Source: Mongoliibacter sp. (GTDB lineage Bacteria > Bacteroidota > Bacteroidia > Cytophagales > Cyclobacteriaceae). From it: a stretch of DNA of 54,879 nucleotides. The stretch's first letter is position 1. Each line of letters begins with the position of its first letter. The notes below the pieces were generated by a model. The model had not been told where the DNA came from. It worked only from the letters and a program-made list of their open reading frames with translations, and made no database searches. The position numbers and the translations under genes are program-made. Positions 2,328-41,145 of this stretch are shown here, piece after piece. The stretch spans positions 1-54,879 of the forward strand of contig NZ_REBN01000168.1 of the NCBI RefSeq assembly GCF_007692705.1, written 5' to 3'.

Positions 2328-2412
2328 TTGACGGCTTCTTTCCATTAGTTTCTGATTGAAACTAAGGAATTTTTGAAAAAAGATTTCCTATTAACCAAAA
2401 ACTCATTTAGAC

Positions 2413-2441
2413 AAAAAGCTATCCACCAGGGTAGCTTTTTT
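2413..2441 (+). terminator. Intrinsic terminator after pyk
   Basis: AAAAAGCTATCC (2413-2424), loop ACCA and GGGTAGCTTTTT (2429-2440) form a 12-bp stem with one T-G wobble, ending in a T run. It closes the IPExxxVDY-pyk operon about 85 bases after the stop codon. Confidence 0.85.
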
Positions 2442-4109: not shown

Positions 4110-4119
4110 TATATTTCTT

Positions 4120-4146
4120 AAAGGCAGGGGTTCGTCCCTTGCCTTT
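4120..4146 (+). terminator. Intrinsic terminator after the fasciclin gene
   Basis: AAAGGCAGGGG and CCCTTGCCTTT form a roughly 10-bp stem with one bulged T and a short loop around TTCGT. It is followed by a weak T-rich tract and lies 10 bases after the stop codon. Confidence 0.65.
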
Positions 4147-4224
4147 ATTTCACTTTTTTGATTTTATGTAATCTGATCGCTTCTTTTTATTCGTTAATAG
4201 ATTAAATCTTTAGACCTCACAACC

Positions 4225-5277
4225 ATGTTTAACCACCGCTTCAAATTTGTTTTCCCAGGTTTGCTTGCGGTTTATTCATTTTTGAATATACAGCTATTGG
4301 AAGGGGATAGGTTGTTTCAGGCTGAACTCGATCCTGTAAAATTATTTTATATCATTTTTTTGATTTGTTACGCAGTTTGGTTTGCCAACTGGTCAATTGA
4401 GCAATTTGTATTGCCAAAAATTAAAAAATATCACCCTTTACTTCTTCAGTTTTCTTTTAGTCTGGTAGCGGTAACTTTAATCAGTCTTGTATCGGTTTTT
4501 ATAACAGGGCTACTTTTTGGAGAACCATTCAATTATTCCTTGCCAAACCTTTTGTTGACCTCAGGATTCTCATTTAGGATAAACCTATTTTTGAATTGTG
4601 TCAATGCAATCTTTTTCTTTAGTAAAAAATTTAAAGAAAAGGCAGTTGAAGCAGAAAAATTGCATTCATTGAATATGGAAGCTAGGTTGGAATCTCTTAA
4701 TTCCCAAATCAATCCGCATTTCTTCTTTAATAACCTAAGTGCTCTTTCAGCTTTGATTCACGAGGATGTAAAAGCGGCAGATGCTTATCTTCAAAAACTA
4801 TCGGTGATATATAGGTATATACTGAGTAATAAAGATAAAGAACTGGTAAGTTTGAAGGAGGAAATTAAATTTTTAAAAAATTATTTAGATTTATTAATCA
4901 TTCGATTTGAGGATTCTCTTACCTTTAAAATGGAGATAGACGAATCTTGTAAGGGTTTATTTTTGCCCCCCGCAGTATTGCAATTATTGGTCGAAAACGT
5001 TGTTAAACACAATTATTTCACTATTTCAGAACCTCTTGAAGTAGAAATCATATCCGATTGCGATACCATAAAAATTAAAAATAAACTTCAGCCGAAAGAA
5101 GTAGTGGAAGACTCTACGGGCATTGGACTTCAAAACATATCTGATAGATATAGGTTTTTAGGGAGTAACATTAAGGTTGCAGCCTCTGATGAGTTTTTTG
5201 AAGTTGAGCTGCCTCTAATCAAAACTTATGAAAACCGCACTAATAGAAGACGAGCCTTTGGCGCTGAAAAGGATTGA
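4225..5277 (+). CDS. LytS/YehU-type sensor histidine kinase
   Basis: This is a 350-residue membrane kinase of the His_kinase (LytS/YehU) family. Four hydrophobic segments fill the first ~135 residues. The phosphoacceptor motif INPHFFFNNLSAL follows with His165 (the family usually has NPHFLFN), then the N box LVENVVKHN and the G box GIGLQNISDRY. There is no large extracellular sensor domain, so the signal is probably sensed within the membrane. The 3' end overlaps the LytTR regulator gene by 50 bases in another frame, which suggests translational coupling. Confidence 0.93.
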   Translation: MFNHRFKFVFPGLLAVYSFLNIQLLEGDRLFQAELDPVKLFYIIFLICYAVWFANWSIEQFVLPKIKKYHPLLLQFSFSLVAVTLISLVSVFITGLLFGEPFNYSLPNLLLTSGFSFRINLFLNCVNAIFFFSKKFKEKAVEAEKLHSLNMEARLESLNSQINPHFFFNNLSALSALIHEDVKAADAYLQKLSVIYRYILSNKDKELVSLKEEIKFLKNYLDLLIIRFEDSLTFKMEIDESCKGLFLPPAVLQLLVENVVKHNYFTISEPLEVEIISDCDTIKIKNKLQPKEVVEDSTGIGLQNISDRYRFLGSNIKVAASDEFFEVELPLIKTYENRTNRRRAFGAEKD

Positions 5278-5998
5278 AAATATCATCAAACAGCATCGGC
5301 CTGAATGGGAAATTTCTTTCAAAGCTCAAAGTGTCCGGGAACTGGAGGAGTTTTTTTCAGGTGATATTGAAATTGATCTCATGCTTTGCGATATACATCT
5401 GGCAGATGGTCTCAGTTTCAAAGCTTTTAAAGATAAGCAGCCCAAGTTTCCGATTATTTTTATAACTGCCTATGATGAATATGCACTCCGTTCATTTGAG
5501 CATAACTGTATTGACTACATTCTTAAGCCTATTGATGAAGCGAGAATGATTCAGTCCTTTGAAAAGCTTGAAAAACTAGGACAGGTTCAAAATCCTTCCC
5601 TGATACACCCTGATTTGTTCGAAAAATTGCTAAAAAATTATCAAAGAAAGTCGTATAAAAAGCGGTTTTTGAGTAAAATTGGTAAAAGAATCAAATTTAT
5701 CCCAGTGGATGATATTTCATTCTTTTATTCTGAAGGTGGTGCAGTCTATTTAGTAGAAAAAGATGGGTCAAAAAAATACATGATAGACCACAACCTACAG
5801 GAATTGGAAGAAAATCTTTTGGATCCTGCGAGGTTCCATAGAATCAACCGTTCAACGATTATACATTTGGAGGGTTTGGTAGAAATGAAACCTTATATTA
5901 ATGGGAGACTTCTCCTTTCTATGACTTCGGTTAGCGATACAAAAATAGTAGTTGCAAGAGAAAGGGTTAACGAATTTAGAAACTGGATCAATCAATAA
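5228..5998 (+). CDS. LytTR-family response regulator
   Basis: A 256-residue two-domain regulator. The N-terminal receiver has the phosphoacceptor Asp55 in LCDIHLADG, the acidic pair EDE near the start and Lys in ILKP. The C-terminal LytTR DNA-binding domain covers about residues 150-255 (KIGKRIKFIPVDDISFF, FHRINRSTIIH). It begins inside the upstream kinase gene, which is surely its partner. Regulators of this type bind short direct repeats in promoters; the targets are not apparent, though the small gene starting 6 bases downstream is a candidate. Confidence 0.95.
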   Translation: MKTALIEDEPLALKRIENIIKQHRPEWEISFKAQSVRELEEFFSGDIEIDLMLCDIHLADGLSFKAFKDKQPKFPIIFITAYDEYALRSFEHNCIDYILKPIDEARMIQSFEKLEKLGQVQNPSLIHPDLFEKLLKNYQRKSYKKRFLSKIGKRIKFIPVDDISFFYSEGGAVYLVEKDGSKKYMIDHNLQELEENLLDPARFHRINRSTIIHLEGLVEMKPYINGRLLLSMTSVSDTKIVVARERVNEFRNWINQ

Positions 5999-6003
5999 TT
6001 GAA

Positions 6004-6369
6004 ATGAAGAAATACTGTTTTTTTATTATTTTTCTTTTTGGGACGCAATTATATGGTAAAGCGCAAACTACTGAATCGGCACGGATTGATAGCTTGGAAA
6101 AAACTGTCCTTCTGTTGGATAAAGAAATTTATGATATCAATTTGAATCTATACAATTCCCAGCGCCAGCTCAAAAGAGGGATTTTTGTGGCGACCCTAGG
6201 GTATACAGTCACCATCATAGGAGGACAGCTTTTGGGTACAAGGCCTGAATTAGGAGAAGCTTTGCTATACACGGGAGGCGCTATAGGTATTGCGGGGACG
6301 GTTGTCCTGGTCAAGGGGTTTAATAAAATAAGTCTAGGTCCCCCTAAGCCCCCAAGATTTGAGCAGTAA
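6004..6369 (+). CDS. Small membrane protein, unknown function
   Basis: A 121-residue protein with a signal peptide ending around YGKAQT, a short coiled-coil-like segment (residues ~25-55, IDSLEKTVLLLDKEI) and two closely spaced hydrophobic segments (FVATLGYTVTIIGG and LLYTGGAIGIAGTVVLV). It begins 6 bases after the LytTR regulator stop codon, so it is probably the third gene of that operon and could be an accessory component. The family is not recognised. It ends 4 bases before the convergent NFACT gene. Confidence 0.75.
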   Translation: MKKYCFFIIFLFGTQLYGKAQTTESARIDSLEKTVLLLDKEIYDINLNLYNSQRQLKRGIFVATLGYTVTIIGGQLLGTRPELGEALLYTGGAIGIAGTVVLVKGFNKISLGPPKPPRFEQ

Positions 6370-6372
6370 AAA

Positions 6373-7941
6373 TCAATCTTCTTCCTGAGGTCCTCTTGGA
6401 GGAACAATAATTACGCTTTCTTTATCAACCATCACAGCTCCAGCTGGGGACCCTTTTACTTTTCGTACAAATTTGGCCGGAGTATACATGACTGGGGCCA
6501 AGCTTTCATTTTTGTTTTTAGAATAGTATGCTGCAAATTCGGCAGCTCGTTCTATGACAGTTTTAGGGAATGTTATGCCGGATCTATATTTGACCAATAC
6601 ATGAGAGCCGGATACATCCTTGGCATGAAGCCAAAGGTCATCTTTCCAAGCAAAATACCTCAAAAGTTCATCATTGGCTTTAGCTGATTTCCCAACCAAG
6701 ACTTCAAACCCATCAATTTCAAAACGCTTGAACGGTACTTGTTCCTCCCTATCCTTTTGATGTTTGACCAAATGGTTTTCTTTGACAAACTCCTTGAGTT
6801 GCCTAAAATGGCTGATTGCTTCAAGTTCTTGTAGCCATTTTTCCGTTTGTTCCAGTTGTTTTTCTTTAAGCTCAAGGTTTTCGTTAAGGTGCTGTATTTC
6901 CTTTTTCCTGTTTTTGGATTTCCTGTATAAGGATTCTGCAAATTTTTGGGGGCTTACATTTTTCTTTAATCGAAAAGTTTGGTTTTCTTGAGTGTAAAAA
7001 TTAAAGAGCACAACCTCTTCTATTCCCGGTTCAATTTGATGAAGATTAGCCATGATGATATCCGCAACCTGTGAAGGAGCGATTTCATTTTCAATTTCGG
7101 AAAGCTTTGCTCCTGTCTTTTTGATATAGGAAATGGCTTTTTTCCTTTGATCTTCAAAAGTCTTGCTCCATTGTTTTTTCTCTTTTTCAAATGCCTGAAT
7201 GACCACTTTATACCTAAAAAGTTCATTACAAGCTACGATCGGATCGATAGATTGAAAAATGGCTTTGTTCTCAGGTAATAGACTCAGATTATATTCATTT
7301 TCTTCCTTGACTATACTGTAAAGAGGAGTGTCCAAAATATCGAGAAGTTCCTGCAGTAAATTCCATTTAACTTGTAAGTCTGCTTCAGGAAAACCTTTGT
7401 ATTTGAGCCACCTACGTGGTATTTTACCCAGTGTAGGGATAAACTTAGATGCATTTCCCTCCAATTCCGTAAACTTCTGAAGACTTAAATCCAAGTTGAC
7501 ATCCAAGTCTTTGAATAAAATATTTTTATCCTCTTTCAGTTCATTTCTAAATAATAATCCTGGTAAATCCTGTCCATTTTCATAAACCAGAACATTACTC
7601 CTTGTGCCGTGAAGTTTGAAGACCAAGCGGGTGCCTTTATGAAGCTCAATCCAAAAGGCACGTTCGTTTTTGAATACCTGAATATCCAATATTTCTTGGT
7701 TTATGATATTTGGGAAAAGCGAAATGGTGTTACGTTTGCTTCTTTTGAAGTCATCAGGAAAAGACAAAGCAGAAATTACAGGAAGTAAGTTGGCTCTGAT
7801 AAAAATTTGATTGTGACCATCACTACAGCCAATAACCAGTTCGTCTTTGTTTTGAGAAAAACATTCATAGATGCGTTTACCAGTTAATGAGCCCTTTAAT
7901 GCAGGGCATAAGAACTTCAAAAAATGATAGTTTAAATGCAT
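6373..7941 (-). CDS. rqcH: RqcH-like NFACT RNA-binding protein
   Basis: At 522 residues this is a NFACT-family protein, related to bacterial RqcH and eukaryotic Rqc2/NEMF. It binds stalled 50S subunits carrying peptidyl-tRNA and promotes C-terminal alanine tailing of stuck peptides. The N-terminal NFACT-N domain (GHNQIFIRANLLP region), a central coiled coil (about residues 350-400, rich in K/E/L) and the NFACT-R/DUF814 domain near the end (RYFAWKDDLWLHAKDVSGSH) are in the usual order. The stop codon of this gene's upstream neighbour, the hydrolase at 7941-8705, touches its start codon, so the two are probably co-transcribed. Symbol by family resemblance only. Confidence 0.88.
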   Translation of the reverse strand: MHLNYHFLKFLCPALKGSLTGKRIYECFSQNKDELVIGCSDGHNQIFIRANLLPVISALSFPDDFKRSKRNTISLFPNIINQEILDIQVFKNERAFWIELHKGTRLVFKLHGTRSNVLVYENGQDLPGLLFRNELKEDKNILFKDLDVNLDLSLQKFTELEGNASKFIPTLGKIPRRWLKYKGFPEADLQVKWNLLQELLDILDTPLYSIVKEENEYNLSLLPENKAIFQSIDPIVACNELFRYKVVIQAFEKEKKQWSKTFEDQRKKAISYIKKTGAKLSEIENEIAPSQVADIIMANLHQIEPGIEEVVLFNFYTQENQTFRLKKNVSPQKFAESLYRKSKNRKKEIQHLNENLELKEKQLEQTEKWLQELEAISHFRQLKEFVKENHLVKHQKDREEQVPFKRFEIDGFEVLVGKSAKANDELLRYFAWKDDLWLHAKDVSGSHVLVKYRSGITFPKTVIERAAEFAAYYSKNKNESLAPVMYTPAKFVRKVKGSPAGAVMVDKESVIIVPPRGPQEED

Positions 7942-8705
7942 TAGGCAATTTCGATTTTCAAGCCATCATATGCAAGTCTTATATTGGCTGGGAGTTGATT
8001 TTCCACTTCTTGATGGGTACCTAATTTGTGGCTTATATGGGTAAAATATGCCATCTCCGGTTTTAATTCTTGTACTAATGCCACTGCCTCATCCAGAGTG
8101 AAATGCGAAATGTGATGCGTTTTTTGAAGAGCATTAACCACAAGTATTTTGCTACCCCTAATTTTATCCAATTCCTGATTATCGATAGTCTTTGCATCAG
8201 TAATATAGGTGAAATCATCAATTCTGAATCCAAATACAGGGAGTCTATAATGCATGACTTTTATTGGTAGAATTGAGACTCCTTCTACTTCAAAAGCTTC
8301 ATTTTGGATCTCATGGGGGACTACAGAAGGGACACCTGGATATTTGACTTCTGCGAAAACGTAGGAAAATTCCCTTTTAATCTGAGCCAAAACCTTTTTG
8401 GTACCATAAATAGGCATGTCTTTTTTCTGGGCGAAATTGAAAGGCCTGATATCATCCATGCCGGCAGTATGGTCTTTGTGCTCGTGTGTATAAAGGATAG
8501 CATCAAGCCGGTTGATTCTTTCTCGGAGGATTTGTGCTCTGAAGTCTGGACCTGTATCTACGGCTATTTTTATGCCCTGCGTTTCTATAAATATTGAAGA
8601 ACGGGTTCTTTTATCCCTAAAATCTATCGAACTACAGACCTGACAATCGCAACCGATTACCGGGACTCCCTGCGAAGTTCCTGTACCTAAAAATGTGATT
8701 TTCAA
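7941..8705 (-). CDS. MBL-fold metal-dependent hydrolase (PhnP-like)
   Basis: A 254-residue metallo-beta-lactamase-fold hydrolase. The zinc motif THEHKDH (H74, H76, D78, H79) and the opening FLGTGTSQGVPVIGCDC, with paired cysteines that may bind an extra metal as in PhnP-like phosphodiesterases, are clear. Later histidines (KVMHYRLP, THISHKLG) fit the remaining metal ligands. The likely substrate is a phosphodiester or similar; the true substrate is not known. It overlaps the 92-residue gene upstream by 4 bases and abuts the NFACT gene downstream, forming a minus-strand cluster. Confidence 0.9.
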   Translation of the reverse strand: MKITFLGTGTSQGVPVIGCDCQVCSSIDFRDKRTRSSIFIETQGIKIAVDTGPDFRAQILRERINRLDAILYTHEHKDHTAGMDDIRPFNFAQKKDMPIYGTKKVLAQIKREFSYVFAEVKYPGVPSVVPHEIQNEAFEVEGVSILPIKVMHYRLPVFGFRIDDFTYITDAKTIDNQELDKIRGSKILVVNALQKTHHISHFTLDEAVALVQELKPEMAYFTHISHKLGTHQEVENQLPANIRLAYDGLKIEIA

Positions 8706-8980
8706 AGTTTTAGTTCTGTTTGCTGTAATTCTGCGATCAAGTCCTGTATTTTTTTATCTTCAAAATCTTTGGGTTTGAAACCTATTTCCTTTATGATATC
8801 TATCAAAGTATTGATTTTACCATCCAAGGTATAATATTTATTAATGATGACAATTTTTGAGTCCTTGAGTACACAGTATCCTGATTTAAAATTTCCTTTT
8901 TCGTATCTTAAAATGTAATCTGAAGCAGCGAAAATATTTTCGAGCTTATCCAGAAAACTTTTGGAATACTTGATACTCAT
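8702..8980 (-). CDS. Conserved small protein of unknown function
   Basis: A 92-residue soluble protein without signal peptide. Predicted strands around KDSKIVIINKYYTLDGK and a C-terminal helix rich in Lys and Glu are visible. I do not recognise a named family. It overlaps the downstream MBL hydrolase by 4 bases (ATGA-type coupling) and begins 13 bases after the receiver protein at 8994-9371. This places it in a tight minus-strand run and supports its being real. Confidence 0.75.
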   Translation of the reverse strand: MSIKYSKSFLDKLENIFAASDYILRYEKGNFKSGYCVLKDSKIVIINKYYTLDGKINTLIDIIKEIGFKPKDFEDKKIQDLIAELQQTELKL

Positions 8981-8993
8981 ATGAAACTGTATT

Positions 8994-9371
8994 CTATGTG
9001 AGATGTTTTTTTACAGTTGCCAATAGAAGATCGTAATCAAGTGGTTTTTGAACATAATCATCCAATCCTGCCTTTTTGAAATCATCTAAGGTGTAGTTTT
9101 TGTAATTCCCTGTGATTGCCACAATGGGTAGGGATGCTTTTTCTTTGTTTTCAAGTTTGCGGATTGCTTTGGTACACTCAATCCCATCCATGACAGGCAT
9201 GTTAATATCCATTAAGATGAGGTCAAAGTGCTCCTTTTCAATGCACTCCAATACTTGTAGTCCATTTTTCACAGCTTTGATTTCGTAATTTTCAAACATC
9301 AAAACATTTTTAGTTAAGTTGATGATTACGGAACTGTCTTCTGCTACAAGTACTTTTTTTGACTTTGTCAT
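8994..9371 (-). CDS. Stand-alone CheY-like response regulator
   Basis: A 125-residue single receiver domain. Phosphoacceptor Asp55 lies in LILMDINMPVMDG, with the acidic ED pair at residues 11-12, T in VAITGNYKN and K in VQKPLDYD. It has no output domain, so it probably acts by protein contact or as a phosphate carrier. It overlaps the upstream receiver-Hpt gene by 4 bases. Together they look like parts of a phosphorelay, but no kinase is adjacent on this strand. Confidence 0.95.
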   Translation of the reverse strand: MTKSKKVLVAEDSSVIINLTKNVLMFENYEIKAVKNGLQVLECIEKEHFDLILMDINMPVMDGIECTKAIRKLENKEKASLPIVAITGNYKNYTLDDFKKAGLDDYVQKPLDYDLLLATVKKHLT

Positions 9372-10120
9372 TGATGAAATAGTTGATTAGATTGAAAATG
9401 TTTTTTAAAAGAACTGTAAAGCTTGCGTAAATATAAATATTCTTCAAAGGTAGTATCAAAGTTGCTGTTTTTTATGTTTTTTTCAAATGACTCTGAAAAT
9501 TTAAACAATTGCATAGCGCCTAAGGTGCCCGAATTTCCTTTTAAAATATGTAGTTTACCTCCTATTTCAGGGAAATTTTCTACCCTAATTAATGCCTCAA
9601 TATCTGATAGTAGCCTTTCTGACTCTTCAAAAAAGTCTTCATAGACAAGGTTGATATTATCAATATTATTATATTTCATTAACTGTTTTACGACTTTGTC
9701 GTCTAGGATCTCGAAAGTTTCCCAATCTATTGAACTTTCATTTGATCCTTGCTCATTTTGCTGTATCAGCCTGTGTATAGTTTCAAGCAAAACTTTAGGC
9801 TTCACAGGTTTTGGAATAAAATCATCAAAACCAGTCGAAAGAAAATAATCTTTGTCGTCTTTGCTTGCAAAAGCAGAGACTGCAATTACAGGAGCATTGG
9901 AAAGCTGATCAGAGCCTATTGTTTTTAAAGTATTGATACCGTCAATTATAGGCATCTGAATATCCATTAAAATCAGGTCATATGAATTTTCCTTAAGCTT
10001 TTTTATAGCATGGCTTCCGTTTTCAGCCGATTCGAATTGGTACATCTGGCCGATGATGTTTTCAAATACCCTTCTATTGAGCGCATTATCATCCACTATC
10101 AATACCTTTTTATTTTTCAT
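9368..10120 (-). CDS. Receiver-Hpt phosphorelay protein
   Basis: A 250-residue protein with an N-terminal receiver (Asp53 in LILMDIQMPIIDG, DD near residues 10-11, K in FIPKPVK). A C-terminal histidine phosphotransfer (Hpt) domain has its phospho-histidine at about residue 191 in HILKGNSGTLGA. It can therefore both accept and pass phosphate. It overlaps the downstream CheY-like gene by 4 bases. Its start codon at 10120 directly abuts the divergent miaA start at 10121, so its promoter must lie inside the miaA coding region. Confidence 0.93.
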   Translation of the reverse strand: MKNKKVLIVDDNALNRRVFENIIGQMYQFESAENGSHAIKKLKENSYDLILMDIQMPIIDGINTLKTIGSDQLSNAPVIAVSAFASKDDKDYFLSTGFDDFIPKPVKPKVLLETIHRLIQQNEQGSNESSIDWETFEILDDKVVKQLMKYNNIDNINLVYEDFFEESERLLSDIEALIRVENFPEIGGKLHILKGNSGTLGAMQLFKFSESFEKNIKNSNFDTTFEEYLYLRKLYSSFKKHFQSNQLFHQ

Positions 10121-11089
10121 ATGTTTTGTAATACTTTTGACAAGTATAGTGAGTACAAAGCAAAAATAGATTTGGAAGATAAAAATAATTATTTAATTGT
10201 GGTAATTGGCCCTACTGCGGTAGGTAAGACGGAGTTGTGTATTCGACTTGCAAACTATCTTGATACAGCGATTATTTCGGCTGACAGCAGACAGTTTTAT
10301 AAGGAAACCAATTTGGGTACTGCTAAACCAAATGCAGAGGAAATGACTAGGGCAGTTCATCATTTGGTGGATTTCAAATCAATACATGAAAGTTACGATG
10401 TCAAAGATTTTGAAAATGATGTCTTAAATATTTTAAATGAGATATTTAAAAATAAGGATGTTGCCATACTGACAGGAGGATCCGGACTTTATGTAGATGC
10501 CATATGTAACGGACTTGATGATATTCCTGATATTTCTCCGGAAATCCGTGAAAATATTATATCAGAATACGGCAGTAAAGGCTTGGTATATCTGCAGCAG
10601 CAAGTAAAAATGCATGATCCTGAATATTTTGAAATTGTAGACCAGAAAAATCCTCAAAGACTGATGCGGGCTTTGGAAATCTGTAGAGGGACTGGGAAAA
10701 CCTATACAGTATTCAGGAAAAAGAAAAAGGTCAAGCGACCATTCAAAATCATTAAGGTTGGTTTGGAGAGAGAAAGGGACGAAATATACCAAAGAATAGA
10801 TCTAAGGATGGATCAAATGATAGCGAATGGTTTGTTTGAGGAAGCAGCAAACTTGTTTCCTTACCGTCATCTCAATGCCTTACAGACGGTTGGTTACTCT
10901 GAGATTTTTGGTTTTATGGAGAACAAATATGATAAGGAGGAAGCCATTCGTCTCTTGAAAAGAAATTCCAGAAGGTATGCCAAGCGGCAGCTTACTTGGT
11001 TTAGAAAGGATCCTGAATATACCTGGTTTCATCCAGACGACTGCCAGACGATTGAGAGTTTTATAAAATCCCGGATCAATAATTCTTAA
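10121..11089 (+). CDS. miaA: tRNA dimethylallyltransferase
   Basis: MiaA transfers a dimethylallyl group to N6 of adenosine 37 in tRNAs reading codons that start with U. From the ATG at 10121 the protein is 322 residues, close to the family norm. It shows the P-loop GPTAVGKT (residues 30-37), SADSRQFYK, LTGGSGLYVDA, NPQRLMRALEI and a conserved C-terminal RRYAKRQLTWFR. An upstream in-frame ATG at 10010 is unlikely because it would add 37 residues read antisense through the receiver-Hpt gene. A TTG shortly before the P-loop is another possible start. Confidence 0.95.
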   Translation: MFCNTFDKYSEYKAKIDLEDKNNYLIVVIGPTAVGKTELCIRLANYLDTAIISADSRQFYKETNLGTAKPNAEEMTRAVHHLVDFKSIHESYDVKDFENDVLNILNEIFKNKDVAILTGGSGLYVDAICNGLDDIPDISPEIRENIISEYGSKGLVYLQQQVKMHDPEYFEIVDQKNPQRLMRALEICRGTGKTYTVFRKKKKVKRPFKIIKVGLERERDEIYQRIDLRMDQMIANGLFEEAANLFPYRHLNALQTVGYSEIFGFMENKYDKEEAIRLLKRNSRRYAKRQLTWFRKDPEYTWFHPDDCQTIESFIKSRINNS

Positions 11090-11095
11090 TGGAAG

Positions 11096-11473
11096 CTATT
11101 TTAACTTGATTTCTTGATGGCCCATTAGTTTTGCTACAAAGGTGTAAGGGTTTTTAGCGATGGTATTGTTGTATTGTATCAAGGTGAGCTTCAGAGCGCG
11201 GTAAGGTGCCTGAACGGAGGCTATAAATTCATCTGTTTTATCTTTGTCTACTTTTGCTTTTGCATTTTTAAATATGGTTTGGAGATCAAGTAATTTATTT
11301 GACTGATTATCTTCCAATTGATTTTCCAGTAATCCCAGTTTTTTAAGTGCCTGTAATATATCTTTTTGAAGATTGATAACTTTATTTTTCTTTGTGTTCA
11401 GGCTGTAATTTACAGTCAAAAAGAAAAGGATAATAGCAGCACTCAGCGTAGTAATAATTGGTATAAATCCCAT
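11096..11473 (-). CDS. Small membrane-anchored protein, LemA-like C-terminus
   Basis: This 125-residue protein has one N-terminal membrane segment (residues ~3-22, ITTLSAAIILFFLTVNYSL) followed by a helical region. The end, YNNTIAKNPYTFVAKLMG, resembles the C-terminus of LemA-family proteins (an N-terminal anchor, helices, then a Y-N...P...A...G pattern). The region is shorter than usual for LemA, so the match is a suggestion, not a firm assignment. It ends 6 bases before the convergent miaA stop and begins 3 bases after the pfkA stop, so it probably shares a transcript with pfkA. Confidence 0.65.
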   Translation of the reverse strand: MGFIPIITTLSAAIILFFLTVNYSLNTKKNKVINLQKDILQALKKLGLLENQLEDNQSNKLLDLQTIFKNAKAKVDKDKTDEFIASVQAPYRALKLTLIQYNNTIAKNPYTFVAKLMGHQEIKLK

Positions 11474-11476
11474 AAT

Positions 11477-12451
11477 CTAGATACTTAGAATTTCAATCAG
11501 TTTGAGGTGGTCGTCTTTCAAATGTTTGGTTTTGTTGATACAGTCATCGAAAGAGGTATATACAACTTCTCCATTTACAATTCCTGCCATGCAATTTTGT
11601 TCTCCTGAAATAAGACCCTCAACGGCAGCCATTCCACACCTCGAAGCCAATACCCTGTCTCTTGCAGTAGGATTTCCACCCCTTTGGATATGTCCTAAAG
11701 TTGTCACCTTGAATTCTTTATCCGGATCATTGATTTTGGCCTTCACTTTTTCCATTATTTCATCCGCTCCGCCTTCCTCATCTCCTTCTGCAACCACTAT
11801 GATGGAAGAAGATTTAGACTTTCTTAAATTTTTCAATGATTTAGTGACTTGCCTAAGGTCTGTTGAGGTTTCTGGTATCATGACAAACTCAGCACCACCG
11901 CCGATTCCGCATTCCAGAGCGATATAACCGGAATCCCTTCCCATTACTTCCACAAAAAAGATCCTGTCGTGTGCTGCGGCAGTATCCCTGATTTTGTCAA
12001 TCGCTTCCAAAGCAGTATTTACTGCTGTATCAAAGCCAATGGTATAATCTGTTCCATAGATATCATTGTCAATGGTTCCCGGGCAGCCCACAGTAGGTAT
12101 ACCGTATTCCTCGAAAAATATTTTGGCACCGGTGAAGCTTCCGTCTCCTCCAATAACAATCAAACCTTCTATTCCAAAGGCTTTTAATTGTTCATAGGCC
12201 TTTTTCCTTCCTTCTTTGGTCCTGAATTCTTCACTTCTTGCCGACTTGAGAATGGTTCCGCCTCTTTGGATTATATTACTGACTGAGTAAGAGTGCATTC
12301 TTTTGATCCGTCCGTTGATCATTCCCTCGTATCCGTAGCTGATGCCATAGATTTCAAGTTCCTTAAATATGGCAGTTCTTACTACTGCCCTGATACATGC
12401 ATTCATTCCAGGAGCATCTCCACCGGAAGTTAAAACAGCTATTTTTTTCAT
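11477..12451 (-). CDS. pfkA: ATP-dependent 6-phosphofructokinase
   Basis: Phosphofructokinase A commits fructose 6-phosphate to glycolysis. From the ATG at 12451 (MKKIAVLTSGGDAPGMNA) it has 324 residues, matching the E. coli enzyme (320). The GGDGS motif with Gly104 indicates ATP rather than pyrophosphate use. PGTIDND carries the catalytic Asp128, and EVMGRDSGY and TLGHIQRGGNP are conserved. A longer in-frame start at 12475 would add eight residues and is less likely because family members start at MKKI. A LemA-like gene follows 3 bases downstream. Confidence 0.97.
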   Translation of the reverse strand: MKKIAVLTSGGDAPGMNACIRAVVRTAIFKELEIYGISYGYEGMINGRIKRMHSYSVSNIIQRGGTILKSARSEEFRTKEGRKKAYEQLKAFGIEGLIVIGGDGSFTGAKIFFEEYGIPTVGCPGTIDNDIYGTDYTIGFDTAVNTALEAIDKIRDTAAAHDRIFFVEVMGRDSGYIALECGIGGGAEFVMIPETSTDLRQVTKSLKNLRKSKSSSIIVVAEGDEEGGADEIMEKVKAKINDPDKEFKVTTLGHIQRGGNPTARDRVLASRCGMAAVEGLISGEQNCMAGIVNGEVVYTSFDDCINKTKHLKDDHLKLIEILSI

Positions 12452-12598
12452 AGTTAATAGGCTTTTCAATTCCAAAAATACTCATTATTGAAAGCAAATG
12501 ACAAGAAAGCTTGATTTCTTTGGGTAGAAATTGAAGCGGTTTATAATTGAAAAGCAAGTGTGAAAATATTAGGGTTGGCTATACTCCTGAAATAGAAT

Positions 12599-12659
12599 AA
12601 AAAAGGCCGTCAGTGGATGGTTTTCACGGATTTCATTTAAAAAAAATCTGACGGCCTTT
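12599..12659 (-). terminator. Terminator of ssb
   Basis: AAAGGCCGTCAG (12602-12613) and CTGACGGCCTTT (12648-12659) are perfect 12-base inverted arms with a 34-base loop. On the minus strand the second arm is followed by a run of Ts, so this ends ssb transcription 5 bases after its stop. The loop is unusually long for a simple terminator. Confidence 0.75.
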
Positions 12660-12663
12660 AAAA

Positions 12664-13017
12664 TTATTCTGCCAGTTTGGCCACCCTTTCTCCTAGGAGC
12701 ATTATGCTATCTGCCACGATTTCGGTCATATACTTTTTATTTCCGTCCTTATCTTCCCAAGAGCGATTTGAAATTTTCCCATCTACTGCTATTTCAGAGC
12801 CCTTATCCGTGTATTTTTGAACGGTTTCGGCAGACCTATCCCAAGCTACAACATTGTGCCATGTGGTTTCTTCCACACTTTCTCCTTTTTGATTTCTGTA
12901 AAAATCTTTGGTGGCCATTCTGAAAGAGGCTTTGATTTTGCCTCCATCAAATTCCTTGATTTCCGGTTTGGTACCCAATCTCCCGATCAGTTGTACCCTG
13001 TTTCTCATACTGCTCAT
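12664..13017 (-). CDS. ssb: Single-stranded DNA-binding protein, short form
   Basis: A 117-residue SSB with the OB-fold sequence NRVQLIGRLGTKPEIKEF, ETTWHNVVAW and a C-terminal strand ending AKLAE. It coats single-stranded DNA in replication and repair. The acidic C-terminal tail ending in DDDIPF or similar, which recruits partner proteins, is absent: the frame stops straight after the OB fold. This suggests a secondary SSB rather than the main replicative one. It is transcribed alone, with a terminator directly behind it. Confidence 0.93.
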   Translation of the reverse strand: MSSMRNRVQLIGRLGTKPEIKEFDGGKIKASFRMATKDFYRNQKGESVEETTWHNVVAWDRSAETVQKYTDKGSEIAVDGKISNRSWEDKDGNKKYMTEIVADSIMLLGERVAKLAE

Positions 13018-13103
13018 TTTTTTTAGTGTTAATTGTGAAAAGATTTTAGCCTTTTAAAAAGCTTATGTTGAATTTCAGAAGACTTTTTCAAACTGACATC
13101 AGC

Positions 13104-13135
13104 TTAATCGGATATATCCGTTTATATCCGATTAA
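13104..13135. repeat. 13-bp perfect inverted repeat between divergent genes
   Basis: TTAATCGGATATA (13104-13116) and TATATCCGATTAA (13123-13135) are perfect inverted arms separated by six bases (TCCGTT). The element lies between the divergent ssb and S10 peptidase genes, 87 bases from the ssb start and 110 bases from the S10 start. There is no T tract, so a regulator site or small repeat element fits better than a terminator. Confidence 0.7.
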
Positions 13136-13244
13136 TCCTGCTAATTGTAGCAAAACGCCACTTTTGTAGAAGCTGAAGCATTTCTGTACCTTTTATTGAA
13201 TATTATGTAGATTGAGTCTTCAAACTCAAATTATCAATAGCTAT

Positions 13245-14750
13245 ATGAGAAAATTTAACTTATTTGTACTAATGCTTTTTTTGGGTGTATCAATTTCTTT
13301 TGCCCAAGAAAAAGAGACATCTAAAGAAATACCGGAAGCTCAAGTCTTCACATCTACTCAAACAGTAAGGATTGGAGGGACCACACACAGCCTCAAAACC
13401 CGTGCGGGGACGATGCTTTTGAGAGATGAAAACAATAAGCCAATAGCGCTGCATGGATTCACCGCTTATTTTAAAGAAGACGGACCTTCAAAAAGACCTA
13501 TTATTTTTTCCTACAATGGAGGGCCAGGCTCTTCATCCTATTGGTTACATATGGGAGTAATGGGACCTAAAAGAATTGTAGTGCAGGACCCTGGATATAC
13601 GCCTGCAGCGCCATACGAGCTTGTTAATAATGATTTTTCCATCTTGGATGTTGCTGATGTGGTGATGATGGACCCTATAGGTACAGGACTTAGTATGCCT
13701 GTTGGGGAGGCTGAAGGGAAAGATTTTTGGGGAGTTGATCAGGATATCAGGGCCATTAGCCTTTTCATCATGCAATTCTTGAAAGAGTATGATAGGTTAC
13801 AATCTCCTAAATATATTTTAGGAGAAAGTTACGGTACCATGAGAAATGCAGGTGTGATGAAGTATCTTTTGGATAAGGGATACGCTTTGAATGGTGTGGT
13901 AATGGTTTCTTCAGTTTTTGATATCAGGTCTTTGGCTTTTCCTGTCCAAGAGAGCAATTCCTATTTGGTCCATTTCCCTTCCTATGCTGCCACCGCATGG
14001 TATCATGATAAATTGGCCAATAAAACCCCAGATTTAGAAGAATTTGTAGACAAAGCAAGGAAGTTTACTGAAGAAGAATATATGCCTGCTTTGTTTAAAG
14101 GGGGTAGATTGACTGACTCTGAAAAAGGTGCTATAGCTTCAAAAATGGAACAGTTTACGGGAATTTCATCTGAAATATGGCAAAGAAATAATCTTAGAAT
14201 GAGAGCGAATGAGTTCTTCAATGAGTTATTGCGCGATGAAGGGATGACTGTTGGACGTCTTGACTCTAGATTCAAAGGAATCAATCCAATGCCTCAAAAC
14301 CAATATTCAATAACCGACCCGCAGAGTGATGCAATATCACCCGCCTATACAACAGGGTTCTTAGACTATTTCCATAGGGATTTAGGCGTAAGTAAGGATC
14401 TTACCTATAAAACTTCAGCTTATGCTTCTCCAGGATTTAAGTGGGATTGGTCCCATAAGGGAAATGAAGGCTGGGGAAGTATGATTTCTATCAATACGGC
14501 AATAGATATGGCTGATGCTTTGAACAAGGATCCAAACTTGAAAGTACTCATGATGAATGGCTACTATGATTTAGCTACGGTGTTTTATGGAGTAGAGCAC
14601 ACTGTAGATCAAATGAATCTAAGACCGGAAATCAGAGATAATATCATCATGACTTATTATGAAGCAGGCCATATGTTTTATACGCATATGCCATCATTGG
14701 AAAAGTTTAAAAAAGACTTGGCTGATTTTATCAAAGACACTTCAAAATAA
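13245..14750 (+). CDS. Secreted S10-family serine carboxypeptidase
   Basis: From the ATG at 13245 the protein has 501 residues and opens with a signal peptide (residues 1-20, ending SISFAQ). It carries the S10 signatures YNGGPGSSS, ILGESYGT with nucleophile Ser195, Asp442 in NGYYDLAT and His476 in EAGHMFY, in the right order for a complete triad. It should remove C-terminal residues from peptides in the periplasm or outside the cell. An in-frame TTG at 13212 would prefix residues that spoil the signal peptide, so it was not chosen. A bidirectional terminator follows. Confidence 0.95.
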   Translation: MRKFNLFVLMLFLGVSISFAQEKETSKEIPEAQVFTSTQTVRIGGTTHSLKTRAGTMLLRDENNKPIALHGFTAYFKEDGPSKRPIIFSYNGGPGSSSYWLHMGVMGPKRIVVQDPGYTPAAPYELVNNDFSILDVADVVMMDPIGTGLSMPVGEAEGKDFWGVDQDIRAISLFIMQFLKEYDRLQSPKYILGESYGTMRNAGVMKYLLDKGYALNGVVMVSSVFDIRSLAFPVQESNSYLVHFPSYAATAWYHDKLANKTPDLEEFVDKARKFTEEEYMPALFKGGRLTDSEKGAIASKMEQFTGISSEIWQRNNLRMRANEFFNELLRDEGMTVGRLDSRFKGINPMPQNQYSITDPQSDAISPAYTTGFLDYFHRDLGVSKDLTYKTSAYASPGFKWDWSHKGNEGWGSMISINTAIDMADALNKDPNLKVLMMNGYYDLATVFYGVEHTVDQMNLRPEIRDNIIMTYYEAGHMFYTHMPSLEKFKKDLADFIKDTSK

Positions 14751-36395: not shown

Positions 36396-39300
36396 ATGGG
36401 ATTTCGCAAACTGAAAATATGGGGATTTTTTTTAGCGGCTATTGTAGTGGTGGGGTTTATACTTTTCCAGCAATCACAGGACAATAAAGTTCAATTGGAT
36501 AATCAGGCTATCAGGAATCTGGAAATGGTTAAAACCAAGTTCTTTTCCTTTTACCATTCTTTTTTAGCAGAGCATGAAGACAGGTTTGTTCGTTATGTGA
36601 TTACTGAAAAGTTGGGGGAAAATAATTTCCCAAGTGAATGGAAGGAATTTGCAGCAAGTCTTAAGTCAATCACGGGAGAACAATACAGGGAATTTAAATC
36701 CCTGAATAATAAGGATAGCTTAAATTCATCTCTTGAAATTGTTTCTAAAAATGGAGAATATGAGCTTAAGAAAATCCGCCATCCTGTAAACCCGGAGTTT
36801 TTTGAGGATGGAGAATTTAAATTCATTGATTCTGTTGGAAACCCTCCTAAAATTAATTTGACTATACCCTTGGCAAATGCTCTCAGCCTGTCTGCTCAGC
36901 ATGATTTTTTCGAAAAAATTCTTTTAGCAGACGAAAATGGTGAAATCCTATACCCTTCAATGGATATAGGTAAAAAACTCTTGAAATTGACAGAAAAGGA
37001 TGGATTAGACCTTCCTATTACTAAGGCTGAAATTATTCATCAAGACCAGTCGTATTTTTTGTATTACACTCCATTTTTCCTGGAAGGTGAAAAACTGATT
37101 CTTGCCGGGTTGATTAGTAAAAAACATTATGAATCGCTGGGCTTTAGAATTGATTTTAGTTATTTATCATTGTTGCTATTTCTGTTGGCGATGATGATTT
37201 TTTCCCTCCCTATCATTTCACTGTTTGGCTTTAGGCGCGGAGATGTTTTGACAAGATTCAAGGTGTTCAGTGTAGGGCTTTCTCTGTTCGGATTTATGCT
37301 TTTGATGGGGCTGGGGTTTGCGTTTGTCAAGGACCATCATCCCTACTCGGAAGAGGAGCATTCAAAGAAAAGAGAACGAATTAGTGATGAGATAGAAAAA
37401 GAGATTGATGCTAATCAGGGTTTATTGAGAAAAACATTTGGCAGTGGAGGTTTGATGGAATACCTGACAATAGATTGTCTGGGTAAGATGCAAACTCTGG
37501 TATTGGGAGATATGCAATTGCCTGGAAGAGGTTCCTTCATCAATTTGTCCGAGCGTGAATATTTTTACCATTTTTCAGGAAATAATTTCCGGGAATGCAA
37601 TGACCCACAATCAATTGAGAATGAATTTTTCATAGGTAGCCATTACTCGAGAAAAGATGGAAGTCTCGAAACTGTAATCAGCAAACTTGACACATTGAAT
37701 TGTGAAGTTAAAGCTGTAACATTTAAATGGAACGCATTAAAGGAGCTATCAGATAAGCATAGGTTCATTTTAGTAAAAGACAATGGGGATGTGATTTTTA
37801 AAAGTGAAAAGGTGAAAGCTCCCTTTGATAATCTCTCCCGATTACTTTCAAATGAAAACTGGCTCTTGCTCAAAAACATTATGCAATCCAACAAGGATGT
37901 TTCCCAAAAAACCGCCTGGGATTTAAATCTTCATGTGGATGGATACTCTTACATATTGAATCTTCAAAAAATCCCGGTCAGTGATTTTGACCGGTCCACA
38001 TGGCTTATTTATTTACAAGATGAGCACTTAGAGCATTCCTTCTCATTTTTTGTCGTATTGGAAGCATTCGTGCTATTATCGGGTTATATACTGTTATTGT
38101 TGTTACTGGCTATTTTAAGGTGGTCATTTAGTCCAAAATCAAATTATGGACTTTGGACTGATTTTTCTTATAACCATCTCTTTCCTAGCAGGCTCAATTC
38201 GTCCTATTATTTGTTCTTGATCTTGTTATTTATGATCCTTATAATGGTGATGTTAGGAATGTACCACTTTCTTTCAGTAAATATGTTTACACTTTATTTT
38301 TTTACATTGTGTTTTATGGTTTTTTCAACTCAGGCGATTTTCATTTTTCTGGAAATGAGATGGACAGCTGGTACTTCAGCTATGGAGAAAAACATAAACA
38401 GGCTTTATGCAATAAAATTTTTAGGTTTCACTTCTTTGATAATGGTCTTTTTGGCCATTTTTTTCAAGGGCGCTATGTCAAACCCTCTCTTAGCTTTTTG
38501 TTTTGTCTTCATCTTTATTTTATTGGTCTTTGGCTGTTTTTTGCTGAAAGTATATTTTGAAAAACTTCTTTTACAATTGGAAAATGGCAATGCCAATACT
38601 TGGCTGAAGAAACAAATTCCTTGGTTAGAGACCAATCACCTTTATGCTTGGTTTTTTGTTTTATGGATTACTTTGATTGGGTTTTTTCCTGGTTATATGA
38701 TTTTCTCCAAGACTTTTCAGCAAGAAAAAGAGGTTTGGCAGGCGAAATCTATAACGCTACAAGAGAATGCAGAAGGCTTTTCTTCATGGATTGGGGATTA
38801 TAGCCAGAAAAGGAGAAACCTATTTACCTCTTTTCCGATCAGAGAAGATGAAGAATTATTGGAATTTGTGACTACTTCCACTGGAAATATTGATTTTTTG
38901 ATCAGAAGTAAAAAGGAAAATGAACAAGATTCTAAGGAAATTAAGCAAAATGGAATTGAGTTTTTTACAGATTTAAAATTGAGGGACATTTTAAGCGTTC
39001 TGAGCTTTATTTTATTCTTTTGGATAATTTATTGGCTTAATAAAACAGTGGCTAAAAAAATGTTTTTTGCCGGAGGGATTAACCCCAAGCTAAATGAAAC
39101 AATTTCTGATATTCAGTCAAGGTTGTTGGAAAAAAGAAAATCCATTCAAATGGATGATCAAGGGGAGCTTCAGTGTCGGTTTTTCTTTATTCACCGGTTG
39201 ATTTCCGATGGGAATAAGGAATTGGTCGCAAAACTTTTTAAAATTGAAGTTGACGAAATCTATGGTTTTGATGGGAAGCTTATCAATGTTTTGGACCATT

Positions 39301-40121
39301 TTTCCCCTAAATTAGATAGGGAGTTGGAAGGATTTTTAGACAAACAAGGAACCTTAATGGTTGAGAATTTACACTGTATTGCTGATAGTAGTAAACTTCT
39401 CGAAAGGCTTTCTTACTTGATGGAGTTTTGTGAAAAGCATGACATGCTATTGGTGCTTATTTCAGGAATTTCGTGGAAACAAATGATTTCAAAGGTTGAG
39501 GGTGAACAGCAGAAACTGCATTTTTCCGAAGTTTTCAGTCCTTTTGTGTTTTCCTATATTCCCATTAAAGACAAGGATTTTTCTAAGAGTAATTTTGAGC
39601 ATATCAGTAAGGTGATTGATGAAAATCCAATTATCCCACATGATGTAGAAACCAAACTGTTATTGAGACAGCGATTTTTCAAAGCTGACTACACCAATAT
39701 TTGGGCAGAATTGAGTGCTGAGGAAAAGAAGGTTACTTATGAATTTGCAGTCCATGAATTTCTCAATTATGCGGCAGCACCTGTCATTGTTGAGCTGATT
39801 CAGAAGGGTATACTAGTTTATGAAGCGGGGAAAGACCGTTTTTCACTATTCAGTGACACTTTTCGGTATTTTATTTTGCTTCATATTTCAAGAGAAGAGA
39901 AGGATACCTTCAAAAAACTTGAATTAAACACTGGAAATGCGACTTCCATACAGATAGCGGTATTTAGTTTTGTACTGATTTCGGTAGCGATGATCAGCTA
40001 TTTTGATAGAAGTTTTTTGGATCAAGCCACAGCATATGTAACAGGGATAGTGGGCACTTTAGGAGGAATTTATTCTGTATTTAGGAGTAAGTTCTGGAAA
40101 AATCCCGAAGTAGTCAAATGA
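36396..40121 (+). CDS. Large multi-pass membrane protein with STAND-like C-terminal region
   Basis: A 1241-residue protein of no recognised family. About 12 hydrophobic segments are visible: near residues 8-25, 252-275, 288-310, 550-570, 605-650 (two), 670-720 (two), 750-770, 863-885 and two at the C-terminus. Extracytoplasmic regions of roughly 225, 235 and 95 residues lie between them. The soluble part (890-1180) has a Walker-B-like TLMVENLHCI near 986, LLVLISG near 1019 and a winged-helix-like block (WAELSAEEKKVTYEFAVHEF, then RFSLFSDTFRYFIL). This resembles STAND/AAA NTPases, but no GxxxxGK[ST] P-loop is present. It appears to be a signal-sensing protein with an altered NTPase-like domain. 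Confidence 0.7.
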   Translation: MGFRKLKIWGFFLAAIVVVGFILFQQSQDNKVQLDNQAIRNLEMVKTKFFSFYHSFLAEHEDRFVRYVITEKLGENNFPSEWKEFAASLKSITGEQYREFKSLNNKDSLNSSLEIVSKNGEYELKKIRHPVNPEFFEDGEFKFIDSVGNPPKINLTIPLANALSLSAQHDFFEKILLADENGEILYPSMDIGKKLLKLTEKDGLDLPITKAEIIHQDQSYFLYYTPFFLEGEKLILAGLISKKHYESLGFRIDFSYLSLLLFLLAMMIFSLPIISLFGFRRGDVLTRFKVFSVGLSLFGFMLLMGLGFAFVKDHHPYSEEEHSKKRERISDEIEKEIDANQGLLRKTFGSGGLMEYLTIDCLGKMQTLVLGDMQLPGRGSFINLSEREYFYHFSGNNFRECNDPQSIENEFFIGSHYSRKDGSLETVISKLDTLNCEVKAVTFKWNALKELSDKHRFILVKDNGDVIFKSEKVKAPFDNLSRLLSNENWLLLKNIMQSNKDVSQKTAWDLNLHVDGYSYILNLQKIPVSDFDRSTWLIYLQDEHLEHSFSFFVVLEAFVLLSGYILLLLLLAILRWSFSPKSNYGLWTDFSYNHLFPSRLNSSYYLFLILLFMILIMVMLGMYHFLSVNMFTLYFFTLCFMVFSTQAIFIFLEMRWTAGTSAMEKNINRLYAIKFLGFTSLIMVFLAIFFKGAMSNPLLAFCFVFIFILLVFGCFLLKVYFEKLLLQLENGNANTWLKKQIPWLETNHLYAWFFVLWITLIGFFPGYMIFSKTFQQEKEVWQAKSITLQENAEGFSSWIGDYSQKRRNLFTSFPIREDEELLEFVTTSTGNIDFLIRSKKENEQDSKEIKQNGIEFFTDLKLRDILSVLSFILFFWIIYWLNKTVAKKMFFAGGINPKLNETISDIQSRLLEKRKSIQMDDQGELQCRFFFIHRLISDGNKELVAKLFKIEVDEIYGFDGKLINVLDHFSPKLDRELEGFLDKQGTLMVENLHCIADSSKLLERLSYLMEFCEKHDMLLVLISGISWKQMISKVEGEQQKLHFSEVFSPFVFSYIPIKDKDFSKSNFEHISKVIDENPIIPHDVETKLLLRQRFFKADYTNIWAELSAEEKKVTYEFAVHEFLNYAAAPVIVELIQKGILVYEAGKDRFSLFSDTFRYFILLHISREEKDTFKKLELNTGNATSIQIAVFSFVLISVAMISYFDRSFLDQATAYVTGIVGTLGGIYSVFRSKFWKNPEVVK

Positions 40122-40250: not shown

Positions 40251-40685
40251 GTGTCTCAAAAGCTACATTTAGGGTCGATATTTTTCTATTTTGAAAATGA
40301 TTTAAAGGCTACAAAAGGTAAGTTGGAAAGTGGTGAATGGACAGTGGAGTGGAATTCTTTTACAGGGAAAACTATTGTATATTTAAGAGTCAAAAATTGG
40401 AAAAAGGCGATGGAATCAAAAGTAAAATTTAAAGAACTACTTCAAATTGCAATTGAAAATTTGAAGGACTTAAGTACAGTTCAAGAACCTGATTTTAGAT
40501 TAGAACAGGCTGTTTTTAATGAACACACCAAAGAGTGGGATATTGTAGTTTCATTTTTGGTAGATAACACCAATCAAAGAACCAGTCCATTTGAGCTACC
40601 AGGCTTAAAAAATCAAAGAATTTTTAAAAAACTTAAAGTTAATTCGAACAAAGAAGTACTTGGTTTTTACATATATGAAAATTAA
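40251..40685 (+). CDS. Unknown 144-residue protein preceding a PIN-domain gene
   Basis: Starts at GTG 40251; no in-frame ATG is available. The 144-residue product is soluble and beta-rich in appearance (EWTVEWNSFTGKTIVYLRV, EWDIVVSFLVDNTNQ), and no family is recognised. It overlaps the PIN gene by 11 bases, so it is translated with it. A role as partner or antitoxin of the PIN protein is possible but unproven. No DNA-binding motif is apparent. Confidence 0.65.
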   Translation: MSQKLHLGSIFFYFENDLKATKGKLESGEWTVEWNSFTGKTIVYLRVKNWKKAMESKVKFKELLQIAIENLKDLSTVQEPDFRLEQAVFNEHTKEWDIVVSFLVDNTNQRTSPFELPGLKNQRIFKKLKVNSNKEVLGFYIYEN

Positions 40686-41145
40686 AAAGAAGCTAATAGA
40701 TACAAACGCTCTTTTACTTTTGATTGTCGGGATTATGGATGTTAGACAAATCAAAAGACACAAGCGCTTGTCAATATATGATGAACAAGATTTTTATGAT
40801 TTGTTTTCTCTGATTCAGGATATAGAAAGCTTGATTGTTTTGCCAAATGTTTGGACTGAGGTAGACAACTTATTAAATAACTTTCAAGGGGATTTAAAAA
40901 GCAAATATATTTTTCAAATCTCGGAATTGATAAAAAGTTCAACAGAAAAATATTTAAAGACGATAAAGGTCATAGAGGAATATACTTTTTATGATTTGGG
41001 AATTACAGACACCTTACTCTTATCTTATGCAGATAAATGCGAGTTTTTAATCACTTCTGACTCAAAACTGTCCGATTATGCTGTTTCAAGGGGAGTTAAA
41101 GTTTATGATTTGGTACAGGAAAAAAACAAAAGACTTTGGCTATGA
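40675..41145 (+). CDS. PIN-domain protein
   Basis: From the ATG at 40675 the protein is 156 residues, and shows PIN-like acidic positions: Asp9 in LIDTNALLLL, Glu in PNVWTEVDNLL, Asp in DLGITDTLLL and Asp in FLITSDSKLSDYA. PIN domains are metal-dependent RNases and often toxins. It overlaps the unknown gene upstream by 11 bases and the exported flavodoxin downstream by 4, forming a three-gene unit. An in-frame TTG at 40660 is a less likely start. Confidence 0.75.
   Translation: MKIKKKLIDTNALLLLIVGIMDVRQIKRHKRLSIYDEQDFYDLFSLIQDIESLIVLPNVWTEVDNLLNNFQGDLKSKYIFQISELIKSSTEKYLKTIKVIEEYTFYDLGITDTLLLSYADKCEFLITSDSKLSDYAVSRGVKVYDLVQEKNKRLWL

Follow-up and report, generated by a model that had tools for sequence, protein, structure and literature searches.

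Several described systems resemble one or another part of the protein treated here, which is encoded on the plus strand at 36396-40121 of a 54,879-nucleotide stretch of DNA (the window) from Mongoliibacter sp. (Cyclobacteriaceae, order Cytophagales), contig NZ_REBN01000168.1 of assembly GCF_007692705.1. The genome comprises 285 contigs and 4.42 Mb. We consider it reasonably probable that this protein is an envelope sensor and that its AAA+-like module serves as a switch that does not hydrolyse ATP, that is, as a pseudo-ATPase. The family is new, its domain kinds are known, and it joins an outer Cache-type sensor to an AAA+-like module. Neither Pfam nor NCBIfam holds a family model for this combination, and no paper on it was found in the open-licence text of PubMed Central, where only precedents of a general sort turned up.

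The DnaA and Hda proteins share with the window protein the strand order of the AAA+ core, the Walker B and sensor 1 strands, and the helix after Walker B, in an in-register match over 113 columns. Unlike them, the window clade has no P-loop and its core is attached to a sensor with about 10 transmembrane (TM) segments, and where DnaA has its DNA-binding domain, it has a winged-helix-like block and a membrane hairpin. ORC3 and other degenerate AAA+ subunits with a winged helix, in which a helical block follows the AAA+ core, are the top Foldseek and VIA matches of our low-confidence structure model. ORC3 has lost its catalytic motifs. The window protein differs from it in being bacterial, membrane-bound and a single polypeptide with no sign of a replication role. 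STAND NTPases (nSTAND1, Avs4, MalT) also carry an AAA+-like core followed by a winged-helix-like block, and Avs4 and a maltose-system structure, which we take to be MalT, are among the Foldseek matches listed. However, the window protein has neither a P-loop nor a C-terminal repeat sensor, its own sensor is N-terminal and would lie outside the cell, and the sequence relation is weak.

On the sensory side, the nearest described proteins are dCache receptors such as chemoreceptors and sensor kinases. Relatives of the window protein share with them a large dCache-type outer region between two TM segments, but the output of the window protein is AAA+-like and not a kinase, cyclase or methyl-accepting domain, and it has several extra TM segments. 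In type VII secretion, the DUF domain of the membrane protein EccC5 is reported to be a degenerated ATPase domain (PMC11154593). EccC5 differs in being the ATPase of a secretion machine.

The AAA+-like core and the place of its P-loop

The gene is a single open reading frame (ORF) with an ATG start. A first reading made from the letters alone (the sequence-only reading) had proposed this ORF of 1241 residues, together with the motifs TLMVENLHCI, LLVLISG (residues 1018-1024) and RFSLFSDTFRYFIL (residues 1148-1161), and each of these is found where it was placed. The features go beyond chance because they recur in homologues. Those of the core are as follows:

36396..40121, plus strand: whole gene, a likely sensor of 1241 amino acids with an AAA+-like C-terminal domain and without a P-loop (from the ORF and its homologues)
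39063..39665, plus strand: AAA+-like core without P-loop, residues 890-1090 (from a low-confidence fold, the alignment to P-loop-bearing relatives and a DnaA profile match)
39186..39239, plus strand: putative place of the lost P-loop, FIHRLISDGNKELVAKLF, residues 931-948 (aligned with GLPHSGKT, GVPIVGKS and GLPFSGRT in relatives)
39351..39380, plus strand: Walker-B-like strand TLMVENLHCI, residues 986-995 (N991 invariant in clade A)
39444..39485, plus strand: sensor-1-like strand and SG-x-S loop, residues 1017-1030 (from conservation in clade A)

A scan of the entire protein for the pattern [GA]x4[GA]K[ST] gave no match, which bears out the missing Walker A already remarked on in the sequence-only reading. 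In a tree of 47 rows, built without a truncated copy (L057, 607 residues) and the short ORFs L106 and L109, the window protein falls into a clade of 20 rows (clade A, support 100/100), and the 27 others are referred to as clade B. The pattern is present in 0 of the 20 clade A rows. Two distant clade B members have a canonical P-loop at the aligned place (GLPHSGKT in L058, GVPIVGKS in L105), where the window protein reads 'RFFFIHRLISDGNKEL'. Five further clade B members are near-canonical (GLPFSGRT in L067, GLPYSGKN in L071, GLPRSGRS in L068, GVTYAGKH in L061, GSPGSGKL in L101), and 20 rows of this clade were scored as having lost the P-loop. When 48 family proteins were scanned, the pattern also appeared in L070 and L103 far from the place, and was taken as chance. 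Sixteen further loci (19 were given, three of them repeats of tree rows) have no canonical P-loop at the aligned place; L204 (GAPGSGKM) and L208 (GLPFSGKN) are near-canonical, while L217 and L218 aligned poorly and were not judged.

The two clades were compared by hhalign, with clade B taken without the long-branch rows L099, L102, L103 and L104. The AAA+ cores align at 96.3% (E 1.7e-9), and the alignment pairs 'FFFIHRLISDGNKEL' of the window protein with 'LFVIGLPFSGRTDRL', 'LMVENLHC' with 'VVIENFEY', and 'LVLISG' with 'IVILSE'. The winged-helix-like blocks align at 99.7% (E 6e-26). The E-values are for single comparisons, and agreement is favoured by taking all segments from the same joint alignment. 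Since the core, the winged-helix-like block and both outer regions align, clades A and B are homologous throughout. Loss of the P-loop is thus supported by more than its absence, because colinear relatives keep it at the homologous place. The sequence-only reading, which had suggested an altered or lost nucleotide site, was therefore right in substance.

Six P-loop changes are needed on the tree, and at least three of them are forced by well-supported branches; the tree cannot itself separate gain from loss, and long branches blur the details. As the P-loop is unlikely to have arisen several times, each time independently, at one and the same strand end, we infer that it was lost repeatedly.

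The kinship of the core was assessed from sequence profiles, independently of the structure model. Individual relatives gave matches to Hda (L068, E 4.5e-6), Bac_DnaA (L067, E 0.0037), AAA_22 (L058, E 0.002) and nSTAND1 (L101, E 0.014), and these stretches map to window residues 906-1040. When the cores of both clades are combined into one profile and compared with a profile of 30 DnaA sequences, 113 columns align at 83.6% (E 8.2e-6). Clade A alone, which has no P-loop, reaches 66% (E 5.6e-5) in the 52 columns that run from Walker B to sensor 1, and clade B alone 35.5% (E 3.9e-4), while the controls (30 response regulators; the outer regions) gave E 0.053 or worse. A profile of the P-loop-bearing members picked up DnaA unprompted in three genomes, among 11 weak matches whose loci were read in plus-strand frames only, so that the best of them (L236, E 7.4e-7) is among those unread. 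In the PDB, C-terminal profiles found DnaA 2z4r at E 0.1 and 0.032, alongside unrelated proteins at similar E. On the strength of the profile and single-relative matches, we describe the core as AAA+-like, with DnaA and Hda as its nearest kin among those measured. The sequence relation to STAND, the label first given to this region, is weak: nSTAND1 appears weakly in the one relative named above, and a profile of seven nSTAND1 sequences gave almost nothing (E 0.031 or worse over 16-25 columns).

Structure prediction points in the same general direction. The AlphaFold models of the C-terminal part and of the sensor half were both built from four close sequences only. In the C-terminal model, the order is strand, loop, helix, strand, helix, Walker B strand, helix and sensor 1 strand. 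All 50 Foldseek matches listed for this P-loop-less model are AAA+ or STAND by title; ORC3 comes first (E 4.1e-4), followed by other ORC, RFC, FtsH, DnaA, TnsC, ClpX, Avs4 and a maltose regulator. The profile and structure check proposed for the C-terminal part thus upheld AAA+ kinship, on the structural side with a model of low confidence, while membership of STAND in particular stays a possibility.

Conserved residues and selection at the old ATP site

Polar residues are fixed in clade A at strand ends which, by homology, lie on the ATP-holding side of an AAA+ core. N991 is present in 20/20 rows, H993 and G1024 in 18/20 each, S1023 in 17/20, and D936 and S1026 in 16/20 each. By weighted conservation among the 197 core columns, N991 ranks first, H993 third, D936 seventh, G1024 tenth, S1023 fifteenth and S1026 twentieth. 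The acid pair of the Walker-B-like strand, whose lack of conservation had been named as grounds for dropping the original proposal, is only partly kept: E990 occurs in only 11 of the 20 rows and ranks 62, the second acid position is H993, and the conserved residue is the next one, N991. Clade B has H at column 991 in 19 of 27 rows and E at column 993 in 16 of 27. The columns were chosen after the alignment had been viewed, and the effective sequence number is only 12.

Because of these residues, the old ATP site is not called simply dead, and it may have a new task. According to one alternative, the site has been rebuilt and not lost: N-x-H, S-G-x-S and, outside the window's subgroup, the Asp in the former P-loop would bind another ligand or be catalytic, driven from outside by the Cache sensor. 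The fixed residues stand in the loops that follow the P-loop, Walker B and sensor 1 strands of the relatives, as such a site would have it. However, D936 is replaced by I in all four members of the window's own subgroup, conservation at S1023 and column 991 extends to clade B and may thus in part be structural, and the late choice of columns and small effective sample also count against it. We regard a rebuilt site as rather unlikely, though worth keeping in view.

The ratio of nonsynonymous to synonymous substitution rates (dN/dS) between the window protein and its Indibacter homologue is 0.08 for the core and 0.04 for the winged-helix-like block; between Indibacter and Arthrospiribacter the values are 0.11 and 0.08. 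Judging from these ratios, the window's clade is under purifying selection. They also bear on the idea that the gene is decaying, with the P-loop gone because the domain no longer matters. The P-loop is indeed eroded in many relatives, but the four closest sequences have an intact ORF, dN/dS is low in both parts, and residues are fixed across clade A, which makes decay very improbable.

Putative sensor, predicted membrane topology and proposed mechanism

The remaining features of the protein are listed below:

36420..36470, plus strand: TM1, residues 9-25 (hydropathy)
36474..37151, plus strand: first extracytoplasmic region by predicted topology, residues 27-252, homologous family-wide (hhalign of clade A against clade B, 97.7%, E 1.6e-12)
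37152..37325, plus strand: TM2, short inside loop and TM3, residues 253-310 (hydropathy)
37326..38036, plus strand: second extracytoplasmic region, residues 311-547, probably dCache-type by homology (dCache_1 matches in relatives; hhalign of clade A against clade B, 97.8%, E 1.1e-12)
38037..38708, plus strand: membrane block TM4-TM9, residues 548-771 (hydropathy)
38709..38993, plus strand: third extracytoplasmic region, residues 772-866, with the lowest conservation (identity 62% to L042 and 36% to L077)
38994..39056, plus strand: TM10, residues 867-887 (hydropathy)
39666..39953, plus strand: winged-helix-like block, residues 1091-1186, the soluble part with the highest conservation (seven residues invariant in 37 members; wing unconfirmed)
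39954..40118, plus strand: C-terminal transmembrane hairpin, residues 1187-1241, its second helix weakly hydrophobic (hydropathy)

Hydropathy gives 11 hydrophobic segments above the 1.6 threshold, after segments broken into neighbouring peaks had been merged by hand, and a twelfth (about 1213-1232) that is visible only in the clade mean, at 1.39. This fits the sequence-only count of about 12. The predicted topology has 12 TM segments and both ends inside: TM1, 27-252 outside, TM2-3, 311-547 outside, TM4-9, 772-866 outside, TM10, a cytoplasmic part at 888-1187 and the C-terminal hairpin. Lys and Arg are present in the longer inside loops, as expected for this arrangement, and the several extracytoplasmic regions suspected earlier would be the three large ones.

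The second outer region is judged to be dCache-type from relatives. Of 37 members, 8 have a Pfam dCache_1 match with an E-value of 0.1 or better (best 1.6e-11); the matches in L067, L068 and L072, at 25.6-29.1 bits and so below the Pfam cut-off of 45, map to window residues 318-539. Cache domains sense small molecules, and for this reason residues 311-547 may do the same. The first outer region of the window protein has no Pfam match. The loci L039 (Indibacter) and L041 (Arthrospiribacter), at 7816-13825, share two tracts of 95% DNA identity, one about 6 kb long and one of 2 kb, other matching pieces being 74-89% identical. Within the gene, residues of about 41-240, in the first outer region, are 68-84% identical between the two and the remainder mostly 92-100%, which looks like an exchange of the sensor region.

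In the winged-helix-like block, W1103, E1110, N1124, L1134, K1137, G1138 and F1156 are invariant in the 37-member alignment. The protein ends in a hydrophobic hairpin, with no superstructure-forming repeats at the C-terminus and no Pfam repeat family. A membrane-tethered transcription factor like ToxR or CadC, with a sensing outer part and a winged-helix-like block that binds DNA, would agree with the high identity of this block (87.5% to L042, 86.5% to L077) and with its cytoplasmic position in the predicted topology. However, the block is not basic (13 K+R against 14 D+E), is placed between the AAA+-like core and the membrane hairpin, and has an unconfirmed wing, and no partner gene is common to the lineages. 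We find this explanation distinctly unlikely.

We therefore return to the envelope sensor with a non-hydrolysing AAA+-like switch. The dCache-type region, together with another outer region of the protein, would read a small molecule or the state of the envelope. The membrane bundle would relay the change to the cytoplasmic AAA+-like core and winged-helix-like block, which appear to be clamped to the membrane on both sides, by TM10 and by the C-terminal hairpin. The core would descend from an ATP-binding ancestor. As it could not bind ATP in the usual way in this lineage, we propose that it acts as a pseudo-ATPase, either a conformational switch or a scaffold, with the winged-helix-like block as the likely output face gripping a partner. 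The signalling half of the earlier phrase 'membrane signalling or defence protein' is thus supported in type. The defence half is not, as PADLOC found nothing for the window protein and, among 37 members, only three scattered families in one member each (E 0.0009-0.052).

A number of results weigh against this proposal. The mean predicted local distance difference test score (pLDDT) of the C-terminal model is 47.9, and the sensor-half model (888 residues, pLDDT 32.4) was discarded. The Foldseek matches listed have TM-scores of at most 0.31 and root mean square deviations above 12 Å, with E below 0.001 for the first only. VIA-align Z reaches 7.9 over 109-178 residues, which is below 8, so that common arrangements may account for it. 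The C-terminal model shows helices only and no wing strands in 1091-1186, and because of this the winged helix proposed in the sequence-only reading is unconfirmed. The window protein itself has no dCache match in Pfam. The weak matches of the profile of P-loop-bearing members include other P-loop proteins, and two of them (L243, L244) look unrelated. When P-loop labels were shuffled on the tree, as few changes were needed in 150 of 500 cases. Several dS values are high or saturated (1.6-2.1 between the window and Indibacter), and the low-dS pair, Indibacter and Arthrospiribacter, sits in a tract of unusually high inter-genus identity. Finally, the fixed polar residues are no less compatible with a new ligand site than with a simple scaffold.

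Family, neighbouring genes and meaning

The closest homologues come from Indibacter alkaliphilus, Arthrospiribacter ruber and Mongoliibacter ruber, with 61-76% identity over the full length. Counting the window's own genome, matches occur in 9 of 39 close genomes and in 44 of 148 genomes of the GTDB family, and the sole other genome searched from the same genus (G001) carries a copy. Across the phylum, a profile of the C-terminal part matches in at least 9 of 395 genomes, own included, a count that may be low because at most four candidates per genome were scored. With the profile of P-loop-bearing members, matches appear in 39 of the 390 genomes searched in the order and in 18 of the 395 searched in the phylum, where weak matches need not belong to the family; in the phylum, the winged-helix-like block was reached in seven genomes only, own included.

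No Pfam or NCBIfam model describes the family, as searched with the window protein and members, and for the window protein itself, searches of Pfam, NCBIfam, PADLOC and PDB sequences left nothing worth retaining. Weak matches, among them DUF1508 and a FliA-type sigma factor, were put down to chance, and the whole alignment, searched as a profile against the PDB, returned mostly noise of the TM type. The earlier suggestion of a possibly new family holds in the sense that no database model fits and that the family is built of known kinds of domain. Two adjacent ORF pairs in the family's cluster, L106 (G694, 5454-9760, 988 and 426 residues) and L057 (G144, 1337-5467, 764 and 607 residues), look like a gene split into sensor and AAA-like halves, through either real fission or sequence error.

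Neighbouring ORFs were called mechanically, and some may not be genes. Upstream of the window gene lies an ORF with leucine-rich repeats (639 bp away), and downstream one of 144 amino acids (130 bp away). Among the neighbouring ORFs of the members compared, no gene accompanies the family throughout, and the window clade has no conserved partner. A sigma factor-like ORF and two others, named by reading, lie downstream of eight members (L048, L050-L054, L056, L076); these were dropped as candidates, since the genomes are related and the arrangement looks like synteny that they have in common.

Genes for patatin or Tle1-like phospholipases are found near distant members of the family (L055, L061, L071, L101, L103, L059/L062/L063). 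The ORFs overlap in L055 and L101, a Tle1-like phospholipase adjoins L103, and L071 and L075 adjoin an M19 dipeptidase. At least 7 of the 43 member genomes (G013, G105, G147, G050, G088, G059, G295) carry a patatin-like phospholipase gene no more than about 6 kb from the family gene, compared with 0.51 expected from the 179 patatins in those genomes, in a test that was made after the pattern had been noticed and with three of the seven genomes from one genus. The family could accordingly be imagined as the receptor or regulator half of a two-part effector system, in which an AAA+/STAND-like sensor controls a lipid-cleaving enzyme. Among the ORFs examined, however, the window gene has no patatin, Tle1-like or M19 neighbour and its close relatives have no such lipid-cleaving one, and PADLOC has no defence model for the window protein; we give this explanation only a slim chance.

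Two small overlapping ORFs (40251-40685 and 40660-41145) lie between the window gene and a flavodoxin-like gene, and in L039 and L041 the corresponding gap is 100 bp. L039 has, upstream, a 93-residue ORF that resembles the first of these by eye. The second has what we take to be PIN-like motifs and only a weak CDC24 match (E 0.0075). The two are possibly a mobile toxin-antitoxin-like pair. In addition, a shared ORF of 320-414 residues with a hydrophobic start lies near the family gene in L065, L071, L101 and L108, with no Pfam match in the two tested, and the ORF upstream of the L108 member (10115-13573, minus strand) encodes 1153 residues with an eCIS_core domain.

If the reading of a rebuilt site were true, the AAA+ fold would have become a transmembrane signalling output of a new kind. 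In the envelope sensor with a pseudo-ATPase switch that we favour, the interest lies in the family as a whole. Its colinear relatives display the ATP site in stages, with canonical, near-canonical, eroded and replaced P-loops, and the site was probably lost more than once. The family may therefore offer a natural series in which to study the behaviour of an AAA+ or STAND-like switch that lacks ATP.

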